From an uncultured Caulobacterales bacterium (GTDB lineage Bacteria > Pseudomonadota > Alphaproteobacteria > Caulobacterales > Maricaulaceae), in assembly GCA_938040095.1 (NCBI GenBank), contig CALHXF010000108.1:1-35843 (forward strand): 35,843 bases of DNA, given 5' to 3'. Numbering within the stretch: the first letter of the stretch is position 1; each line of letters opens with the position of its first letter. Under the pieces are notes generated by a model. That model was given only the letters and a program-made list of their open reading frames with translations, did not search any database and was not told where the DNA came from. The position numbers were made by a program, and so were the translations under genes. Of this stretch, positions 11,171 to 14,030 are shown piece after piece.

Positions 11171-12868
11171 TTAAGTAATGTCGTTCCGTAGGCCTAGGCG
11201 GAAGTCCATGATGCGGTCTTCGACATCTGACGTTGAAAGGTTGTCAAATTCATCAGGTTCACGCGGCTGAATGTCAGGCTGAGCCGCAGGTTCATTGGAC
11301 ATACGACGCGATTGGGACACTGAAAGCGCCGTTGCGACATCGCGGTAACGACGGTCGAAATCGGTCACATCTTGTTTGGTTTGTAGTAAGTCTGAGCTGG
11401 CTTGTTCCAACTGGAAAGCCTGTGTTTGGATGTAAGTTTCGAGGCGTTCGCGCTCGAGATCTTGAGCCGTTCTGATTTTCCGAAGTTCCTGCACGTCGCG
11501 GGCTGCGTTTTGAACAATTTCATCTTTGATTTGGAGTTGCTTGGAGAGCTGATCGACCTGCTGTTGTAAGGCCGTCATTTCATCTTCGCGGCTGATGATC
11601 GTGAATTCGGATTGGGTCTTAAAGGTTCGAATGTCCTCATGCATGCCCATCATTTCTGATTTCATAGCATTGTTCTGGGTTTGGGCTGTGGCGAGCGCTT
11701 TGCGCAATGCGTCAGCATCTTTCTCCGCTGACTCAGACTGATGACGGAAATCAGAGCAATCTTGTGCGAGGCTGTCTGCGATTTTCTTCGCTTCAATATA
11801 GGCCGAGTGCTTCCCGTCCGCGTCCCCAACAGCGTCGGCCAGGCGATCTCGAAGCACTTCATTTTCACGTCGTTCTACGTCTAAAGAGGTTTGCAAACGC
11901 TCAGAGCTCAGGGCGTTGCGATCAGAACTCTCGCGGCTCGCGGTCAGGGCGCGCTCATATTCCTGAAGGGATTTCTGTACGACCGCTAACTTGCCAACCG
12001 CGGTTTCATACACACGCGTTTTTTCTGCAAGGCGCGTTTCTTGATCTTTGAGGTCGGCCCGTAGGACTTCAATGTTCTGTCCAGTAACGTCAATTTCACG
12101 CTCTAACGTGCGGTTTCGCGCTTTAAGGCGGCGGTTTTCTGGCTCAAGCCGATTGAGCATGGAGAAGTCAACTTCTGCGCGTTCAACAAATTGAGTCAAG
12201 TTTTCGATACGCTGCTGCGCGCGACGGTAGAGTTCTTCGCCGCTTTGAATGTCGGCAGAAATGCGGGCCACGTCCAAACGCATCGCGCCAACATCTGCTC
12301 TGTCTGAACGACGCACAGGTGGCGGCGGTGGCGTGAAGTCTTCGGCGGAGCGTGTCGGTGCAGGACGCGCTGTTGCGGCAATCGGGGTTCTGACTTCCGG
12401 TTTTCTGGCTTCAGGCCTGATACGAGCTTCTACCGTTCTGTCCGAGAATGTTTCAGACGGTAACATAGCAGCAATGGGCGCCGGGGATATTGGTTCAGGC
12501 GCAGGCTCTGGGAAGGACATCTCTGGCGTGACGTCTAGGTAGGTTGAGTCTGCAGGCATATCGACTTTCAAATCGGATGCAAAAACAGCTGTATCCGTAT
12601 CGCGCAAGTCATGACCTCCAAATTCGGACGGCAGGATTTTGTTTGCTCGGAGAGATGTGTCTTCCCTAAAATCGGTCGATGTGGGCGCTGCGCGATCATC
12701 ACTGCGGGAGACAATAGGTGGGGTACCATCACTATCTGCGCGTTCGACTTTGGCGCTGACTAGGCGTTCTAGCTCATCCCATTTGGCTTGGTTTTCACTA
12801 TCAATGGCTTTGGCGCGTCGGTCTGCGCCCGTGTCTGCTTCTTGCTGTTTCTTGCGAAAAAACGCCAT
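11171..12868 (-). CDS. Large coiled-coil protein (filament-like, unknown role)
   Basis: From the ATG at 12868 the protein has 565 residues; a GTG three codons upstream is possible. It starts with a basic patch (MAFFRKKQQ), then about 180 residues of disordered Pro/Ala/Asp-rich sequence containing a PPPPP run-like FTPPPPPVRRSDR, then a nearly continuous heptad-rich coiled coil (about 195-530: LEPENRRLKARNRTLEREI, LRADLKDQETRLAEK, ALQQQVDQLSKQLQIKDEI). It ends in a conserved-looking short tail (VEDRIMDFRLGLRNDIT). There is no signal peptide or membrane helix. Architecture resembles bacterial intermediate-filament-like scaffolds such as crescentin, but I see no specific sequence signature, so this is analogy only. 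Its upstream region holds an exact CtrA consensus match and a GANTC site, suggesting cell-cycle control. Confidence 0.75.
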   Translation of the reverse strand: MAFFRKKQQEADTGADRRAKAIDSENQAKWDELERLVSAKVERADSDGTPPIVSRSDDRAAPTSTDFREDTSLRANKILPSEFGGHDLRDTDTAVFASDLKVDMPADSTYLDVTPEMSFPEPAPEPISPAPIAAMLPSETFSDRTVEARIRPEARKPEVRTPIAATARPAPTRSAEDFTPPPPPVRRSDRADVGAMRLDVARISADIQSGEELYRRAQQRIENLTQFVERAEVDFSMLNRLEPENRRLKARNRTLEREIDVTGQNIEVLRADLKDQETRLAEKTRVYETAVGKLAVVQKSLQEYERALTASRESSDRNALSSERLQTSLDVERRENEVLRDRLADAVGDADGKHSAYIEAKKIADSLAQDCSDFRHQSESAEKDADALRKALATAQTQNNAMKSEMMGMHEDIRTFKTQSEFTIISREDEMTALQQQVDQLSKQLQIKDEIVQNAARDVQELRKIRTAQDLERERLETYIQTQAFQLEQASSDLLQTKQDVTDFDRRYRDVATALSVSQSRRMSNEPAAQPDIQPREPDEFDNLSTSDVEDRIMDFRLGLRNDIT

Positions 12869-12881
12869 GCCAACCACTCTC

Positions 12882-12939
12882 GAATCAATTAACTACCCAG
12901 CTATACACAAGTAGTTAATCATAGTTAACGCGGATTTAA
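12882..12939 (-). promoter_or_regulatory. CtrA-box-like site, GANTC site and TAGTTAA repeats
   Basis: On the minus strand 12939-12924 reads TTAA-ATCCGCG-TTAAC, an exact match to the CtrA consensus TTAA-N7-TTAAC. A further TTAA at 12915-12918 lies 6 bases from it. The motif TAGTTAA occurs three times (12889-12895 inverted, 12912-12918, 12922-12928), the first two forming a 9-bp inverted repeat ATTAACTAC/GTAGTTAAT (12888-12896 with 12911-12919). A GANTC (CcrM methylation) site is at 12882-12886. The site lies 56-71 bases upstream of the coiled-coil gene start and about 130 bases from fabD, so it could serve either. Confidence 0.55.
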
Positions 12940-13067: not shown

Positions 13068-14030
13068 ATGTCGTTTGCATTCATCTTCCCTGGGCAGGGA
13101 AGTCAATTTATTGGAATGGGTCAGGCCTTGGCCGAGGCCTATCCAGCGGCGAAAGCTGTTTTTGAGGAAGTCGATTCGGCGCTTGAGCAGAAATTGTCTA
13201 CCCTCATGTGGTCGGGTGAAGCTGATGAATTGACGCTAACGGCCAACACGCAACCAGCGCTCATGGCATGTTCACTTGCCGCTATGAAGGCCTTGGACGC
13301 TGAATTTGGCATCAAGGTAACAGATGCGGCTTTTGTCGCAGGACATAGCTTGGGTGAATATTCCGCACTCGCGGCCGCCGAGTCGATCTCAATAACAGAT
13401 ACAGCGAAGCTTTTGCGGATACGGGGCGAGGCCATGCAGGCTTCTGTCCCTGTTGGCGCAGGTGCAATGGCTGCGTTGCTCGGCGCGAGTGTTGAGGATG
13501 CAGAAGCTGCCTGTGCTATCGGTTCAGAGGTCGGGATCGTTCAAATCGCGAATGATAATGCCACGGGGCAAATCGTACTTTCAGGTGAAAAAGCGGCCGT
13601 TGAAGCCGCCGCTCAAGCTGCACGTGACGCAGGCGTCAAGAAAGCAATGATGCTGAATGTCTCTGCGCCGTTCCATTGTGATATGATGAAGCATGCGGCG
13701 GATGCTATGGATATAGCGTTATGCGAGGCGACGATATTGCCACCGCTCGTGCCCGTCGTGAATAATATTCAAGCCCGCCCGATTACGGACCCCGATGACT
13801 TGCGTCAGGATCTTGTTAAACAAGTGACAGGCCGTGTGCGTTGGCGGGAAAGCATTGAGTGGATGACGAGCTCATCTGATCAAGGTGGCGGGAATATTGA
13901 CACATTCGCCGAACCGGGCTGCGGTAAAGTTTTGACCGTCATGCTACGCCGGATCGTCAAGGGCTTGAACGGCAACCAACTCGATACACCAGAGGCGCTC
14001 GAAGCCTTCGCAAAACTGATTAAAGGGTAA
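13068..14030 (+). CDS. fabD: Malonyl-CoA:ACP transacylase FabD
   Basis: This 320-residue enzyme loads malonyl groups onto acyl carrier protein. It begins MSFAFIFPGQGSQFIGMG, has the nucleophile-elbow serine in GHSLGEYSAL (about Ser94), the arginine-containing 'LLRIRGEAMQ' loop, and the catalytic histidine in 'VSAPFHCDMMK'. The ATG at 13068 is chosen over one seven codons upstream because AAGGA sits 8 bases before it and the protein then begins as in the family. It heads the fatty-acid operon; fabG begins 3 bases after the stop. Cytoplasmic. Confidence 0.97.
   Translation: MSFAFIFPGQGSQFIGMGQALAEAYPAAKAVFEEVDSALEQKLSTLMWSGEADELTLTANTQPALMACSLAAMKALDAEFGIKVTDAAFVAGHSLGEYSALAAAESISITDTAKLLRIRGEAMQASVPVGAGAMAALLGASVEDAEAACAIGSEVGIVQIANDNATGQIVLSGEKAAVEAAAQAARDAGVKKAMMLNVSAPFHCDMMKHAADAMDIALCEATILPPLVPVVNNIQARPITDPDDLRQDLVKQVTGRVRWRESIEWMTSSSDQGGGNIDTFAEPGCGKVLTVMLRRIVKGLNGNQLDTPEALEAFAKLIKG

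Follow-up and report, generated by a model that had tools for sequence, protein, structure and literature searches.

The CtrA-binding motif of Hyphomonas neptunium, obtained by ChIP-seq, is given in passages of PMC7200025 as TTAA-N7-TTAAC. The GANTC sites of Caulobacter that are linked to activation at 40-60 min lie between the -10 and -35 elements, according to part of PMC4287350. An extended form of GANTC was proposed for GcrA activation in the same organism, and the section of PMC7987155 that covers it mentions that in Brevundimonas the extension was not seen. As for coiled-coil proteins, an extract of PMC2680258 defines an intermediate-filament-like rod by a coiled-coil rod of more than 80 residues, the lack of a known functional domain and self-assembly into filaments; rod proteins of such layout are described there as common in bacteria, and the layout does not by itself prove filaments. 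A survey found crescentin-like proteins in Caulobacteraceae and Hyphomicrobiales only, and crescentin is reported absent from the families of Caulobacterales other than Caulobacteraceae (both from an excerpt of PMC12700997). To the known CtrA regulon, the locus studied here adds a lineage-restricted coiled-coil gene as a probable member, that is, a probable direct CtrA target of unstudied function, in a branch of the Caulobacterales that has received little attention. No description of this gene or its box was found in the titles and abstract openings of the open-licence literature searched. The locus resembles the CtrA-activated promoters of Caulobacter crescentus and H. neptunium in its full intergenic TTAA-N7-TTAA(C) box at a short, near-constant distance from the gene; further boxes of this kind occur close to ftsZ, cpaB and Tad pilus genes in its genome. 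In contrast to those promoters, its target is a lineage-restricted coiled-coil gene, and the box is joined by a third TTAA half-site and a conserved GANTC.

The analysed stretch of DNA (the window) comprises 35,843 nucleotides and represents contig C108 of an assembly of 2.71 Mb that is 78.6% complete and derives from an uncultured Caulobacterales bacterium. An earlier note on this DNA had reported an exact TTAA-N7-TTAAC upstream of a coiled-coil gene, and the minus strand indeed reads TTAAATCCGCGTTAAC at 12939-12924, the sole exact match in the whole window. The same note considered a chance occurrence somewhere in the window not improbable. We agree, as 0.11 exact matches were expected and at least one was present in 10 of 100 dinucleotide shuffles. 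The lone match is thus weak evidence, and it is conservation that decides whether the box matters. The smaller elements noted around the box were all recovered: an additional TTAA at 12915-12918 (minus strand), separated by N6 from the second half-site of the box; three copies of TAGTTAA, at 12912-12918 (+), 12922-12928 (+) and 12889-12895 (-); a 9-bp inverted repeat spanning 12888-12919, with arms ATTAACTAC (12888-12896) and GTAGTTAAT (12911-12919); and a single GANTC at 12882-12886. By eye, the inverted repeat was not visible among the relatives' upstream sequences compared, and it is probably incidental. The length of the intergenic region, previously set at 170 bases, had to be corrected to 199 bases because the conserved starts are the ATG at 12868 for the coiled-coil gene and the ATG at 13068 for the divergent neighbour. 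With the former start (MAFFRKK), the coiled-coil gene occupies 11171-12868 on the minus strand and the length of 565 residues first assigned to its product holds. The neighbour at 13068-14030 on the plus strand is fabD (TIGR00128, 287.5 bits, cut-off 260.9).

The scan of orthologous promoters suggested in the earlier note was therefore decisive; the refuting outcome named there, a box not conserved in these promoters, did not occur among the clear orthologues. The coiled-coil protein was searched for in 149 genomes, the window's own included, of which 34 gave a match, several through a paralogue alone. Named contigs with a close relative of the protein belong to Litorimonas cladophorae (strain KCTC 23968, orthologue at L039), a Hellea MAG and uncultured Caulobacterales MAGs, seven loci in all. 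The orthologue counts below refer to 25 clear orthologous loci (L009-L033, the window's own included), each divergent from fabD, with loci L039-L045 left out. An exact TTAA-N7-TTAA was present within 130 nt upstream of the coiled-coil ATG in 21 of these 25 loci, while 500 shuffles of the upstream stretches yielded a mean of 0.16 and a maximum of 2 exact-box loci out of 25. In the remaining four loci, a box with a single mismatch was located at -64 to -71, so that all 25 promoters carried the box when up to one mismatch was allowed (shuffles: mean 3.3, maximum 9); taken alone, these four loci were all matched in only one of the 500 shuffles. The N7 spacing stood out as well. Other TTAA-TTAA spacers from 2 to 20 occurred in no more than 3 of the 25 loci, except for N6 (10 loci) and N17 (12 loci), whose counts were raised largely by the third half-site. 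Most of the N7 positions and the upstream flank were variable around the conserved half-sites. Within the window's genus, the base following the box was C in all 11 box-bearing loci; outside it, eight of the ten had G at this position, not C. The third TTAA half-site occurred, at the same offset as in the window, in 8 of these 11 genus loci and in none of the ten outside. A TA at offset 26-27 was invariant in the 11 genus loci and formed part of a TTAANTA in eight of them. Five distant relatives located beside fabD (genus g18; 23-28% identity to the coiled-coil protein) were kept apart from the 25-locus count; in these, neither a full box within 200 nt of the start nor a GANTC within 60 nt was found. 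Judged from the sequences compared, the box is conserved in many relatives while the surrounding DNA has changed.

This conservation, seen across the genera sampled, led us to reject the reading that the box arose by chance in AT-rich intergenic DNA. The GC content of the intergenic region (41%, versus 51% for the window) and the 10 of 100 window shuffles that contained a match speak for it, but the 21 exact boxes in 25 orthologous promoters, against a shuffle maximum of 2, reduce its probability to almost nothing. The position of the box between two divergent starts raises another question, namely whether it serves fabD, and hence fatty-acid synthesis, with the coiled-coil gene being incidental. 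The 5' end of the box was located at a median of 70 nt from the coiled-coil ATG (IQR 64-73), within 63-76 nt in 17 of the 21 exact-box loci and at 82, 90, 113 and 115 nt in the other four, whereas its distance to fabD ranged from 51 to 203 nt across loci. In addition, 27 readable fabD promoters from genomes lacking the coiled-coil gene, inspected over 450 nt upstream, contained no box outside a reading frame (28 loci were read, the mis-anchored L090 was dropped and L103 and L104 were excluded; five of the 27 belong to the same genus). The association of the box with the coiled-coil gene gave a Fisher p of 7e-11, with relatedness ignored. The near-constant distance to the coiled-coil start, together with the boxless fabD promoters of genomes without the gene, indicates that the box travels with the coiled-coil gene, and we consider ownership by fabD very improbable and rejected it. 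The genomes with and without the gene beside fabD, in which the box follows the gene, constitute a natural experiment. In the genomes without it, the divergent side of fabD was occupied by rpsF in several cases and by other arrangements elsewhere. In two genomes of the same genus that lack the coiled-coil gene (L075 in G003 and L076 in G015), a membrane protein, which we take to be of the sodium/proton-antiporter type, fills the slot beside fabD. The single box found among the 27 promoters (L076) was located inside the antiporter-like open reading frame.

The window's own genome encodes CtrA (equivalog NF045991, 423.2 bits, cut-off 350). Exact boxes were not enriched in this genome: 29 strand-wise matches were counted, versus 40 for a reversed-pattern control, and the idea of a genome-wide excess was rejected; only the placement of the boxes was special. 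With reading frames called crudely (longest first, at least 70 residues), 19 of the 24 exact-box loci were intergenic compared to 5 of the 24 control loci (Fisher p 1e-4). The box loci were derived from 25 distinct places, two of which shared one locus, and the control loci from the first 30 of the 40 control matches, reduced to 24. Genes within 300 nt of the boxes include those for FtsZ, CpaB/RcpC, TadE and TadG-like proteins, an M23 peptidase, a D-Ala-D-Ala carboxypeptidase, a DUF2336 protein and MraZ; the mraZ-proximal box was classed within a 78-residue frame. Other neighbours, i.e., an amidase, an amidohydrolase and a BLUF protein, had no evident link to the cell cycle.

Considering the conservation and the placement of the box, we regard it as highly probable that it is a genuine CtrA-binding site that forms the promoter of the coiled-coil gene. 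The box would overlap the -35 region, and the conserved TA element just downstream, represented in the window by TAACTA at 12912-12917 on the minus strand, whose last TA is the invariant one, would serve as the predicted -10 element. The spacing between the two is compatible with a box lying over the -35 of the predicted start site. Phosphorylated CtrA would then recruit RNA polymerase, with transcription starting around 12900-12904 (minus strand), and expression of the gene would be turned on at the stage of the cycle when CtrA is high. At 12915-12918, the third TTAA overlaps the predicted -10 and may allow high CtrA levels to damp the promoter. On the basis of what is known of CtrA biology, production of the coiled-coil protein is probably timed within the cell cycle.

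A GANTC site was the second conserved component of these promoters. The 50 nt next to the coiled-coil ATG contained it in 20 of the 25 loci, versus 2 of 25 for the interval from -130 to -80 (Fisher p 4e-7). In the window, it reads TGATTCG on the minus strand (12881-12887) and matches the extended GcrA-type motif TGATTCG/YGAKTCK. Measured in 18 loci, GANTC started 41-86 nt after the 5' end of the box, which places it probably just downstream of the predicted start site, unlike the Caulobacter 40-60 min promoters, where it lies between -10 and -35. The genome encodes a GcrA homologue, which scored 168.8 bits with PF07750 (cut-off 26.9) and, on the matched part, 202.4 bits with NF050816, under the cut-off of 280. 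It also encodes a methylase whose best NCBIfam match was CcrM (597.7 bits, under the cut-off of 830). Placed just downstream of the predicted start, the site could link the promoter to replication through CcrM methylation and GcrA as a further layer of control. The promoter is probably controlled by CtrA and perhaps influenced by CcrM/GcrA as well. Separately, an exact CtrA box was noted 40 nt past the stop of the CcrM-like methylase gene, preceding a DUF2853 gene (L180, contig C163 of the same genome).

Two further readings concern the way in which these elements act. CtrA might bind the box mainly as a repressor, so that the box and the half-site on the -10 keep the gene silent at high CtrA levels. 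The third TTAA over the predicted -10 would suit such an arrangement, and hemE Ps and ctrA P1 of Caulobacter provide precedents, as described in sections of PMC11264516 and PMC4287350. The third half-site, however, is missing from 3 of the 11 genus loci that have the box and from the ten outside the genus, although all of these keep the main box, and full boxes in Caulobacter whose 5' end lies near -35 follow CtrA levels, as stated in part of PMC4287350; we therefore consider repression as the main role quite unlikely. The other reading concerns the conserved GATTCG, which might be an element of translation initiation or of the untranslated region instead of a methylation site. It lies 16-22 nt upstream of the ATG in most of the genus loci that have it, and 5 of 12 genus loci have a GAGG, a possible ribosome-binding sequence, no farther than 25 nt from the ATG. 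Against this, the element is inverted (CGAATC) in G009 and five g19 loci, which suits a palindrome in double-stranded DNA better than an RNA signal, and homologues of CcrM and GcrA are present. A role in translation initiation or in the untranslated region thus appears somewhat doubtful, and we favour activation by CtrA with GANTC as a methylation site.

The protein encoded by the putative CtrA target was predicted by AlphaFold2 to form one continuous helix over residues 193-517 (325 residues; coding part 11318-12292, minus strand), flanked by a head and a tail of low confidence (mean pLDDT 68). The rod is the part of the protein with the strongest conservation. Most orthologues share a short start, e.g., MAFFRKK or MSIFKRF, and end in a C-terminal peptide that resembles EDRIMDFRLGLR; in the window protein this peptide covers residues 549-565 (VEDRIMDFRLGLRNDIT; 11174-11224, minus strand), and two of the 25 proteins compared were cut by contig ends. 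At E 0.001, the window protein gave no Pfam domain. Crescentin PF19220 was the commonest weak family match (8 of 25 members, best E 0.0013), but the window protein gave no match to it even at E 0.1, and its assignment to this family was rejected. Among solved structures, the family profile matched three at E ≤0.01 (best E 1.7e-4), of which two are coiled coils and one is a phage tail needle. The layout is similar to that of crescentin (CreS) and intermediate-filament-like rods in having a head, a long helical rod and a tail, with no catalytic domain found; it differs from crescentin in the long disordered head, the conserved C-terminal peptide and the lack of a PF19220 match in the window protein. 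With regard to the definition of such rods, what was observed is a predicted helix at 193-517 and the lack of a Pfam domain at E 0.001. A scaffold or filament role fits the predicted architecture. The product comprises a short hydrophobic-basic N-terminal stretch (MAFFRKK), a disordered head, a predicted rod of approximately 325 residues and a short conserved tail peptide. Its most likely function would be that of a membrane- or pole-associated scaffold or filament made before division. As crescentin is reported absent from this branch in the excerpt of PMC12700997, a rod protein that is probably cell-cycle-timed is a tangible candidate here for a scaffold of cell shape or polarity. The family profile matched 7 of 249 genomes of the order, all from the window's own family and two of them (G003 and G053) through the paralogue alone. 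Among the genomes searched, for which the samples of 249 and 240 genomes were draws from larger groups, the coiled-coil gene is, by profile matches, confined to part of one family of the order.

The paralogue is represented in the window's own genome by a second coiled-coil protein of 384 residues (L072, contig C172). In a profile comparison, its rod matched the window family with a probability of 99.7 and E 7.6e-26, which supports homology of the two proteins, with the reservation that coiled coils resemble each other. Apart from the matched rod, the paralogue shares with the window protein a similar short N-terminus and, in the copy of the window's own genome, an exact CtrA box and GATTCG in the promoter. 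It is shorter, lacks the long head, has a different tail and resides at a different locus. A TTAA-N7-TTAA was found within 150 nt of the chosen start in only 10 of 18 readable paralogue promoters (shuffles: mean 0.1, maximum 2); 19 loci were read, L152 was cut by a contig end and further paralogue matches, e.g., in G002, were excluded. Within the genus, six of seven paralogue promoters had the box, five with C and one with A after it, the exception being G004. Outside the genus, the box was present in 4 and absent in 7 of the 11 readable promoters. Four paralogue promoters (L135, L136, L139 and L146) had no full box but a TTAAC shortly upstream of GATTCG, as if a half-site and a methylation site were the conserved core.

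The distribution of flagellar genes was compared in 53 chosen genomes of the window's family, with G019, G033 and the five g18 genomes excluded. Flagellin was detected above the cut-off in 4 of the 25 genomes with the coiled-coil gene versus 25 of the 28 without it, and FlhA in 5 of 25 versus 25 of 28. In G018, which is listed as 100% complete, FlhA was present and flagellin was not matched. The raw Fisher p for the inverse pattern was 1.9e-8. On the FabD tree, built without G010, the coiled-coil gene underwent only 3-4 independent changes, and the starred branches yielded 3 independent pairs, a number with which a sign test cannot reach significance; the pattern is for this reason suggestive only. 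It nevertheless provides a lead on how the CtrA regulon might be rewired after loss of the swarmer stage. One may go further and envisage a family-restricted, intermediate-filament-like cytoskeleton of two paralogues, timed jointly by CtrA and CcrM/GcrA, in which the output of CtrA was redirected from the swarmer to a scaffold and which was kept mainly in flagellum-less lineages; taken as a whole, this proposal is speculative and rather unlikely. Elsewhere in the window's own genome, an exact CtrA box (L068, contig C166, 1859-1874), itself classed inside a 105-residue frame, is located 94 nt upstream of a 468-residue frame that has no Pfam match, appears rich in coiled coil by eye and is possibly a third such gene.
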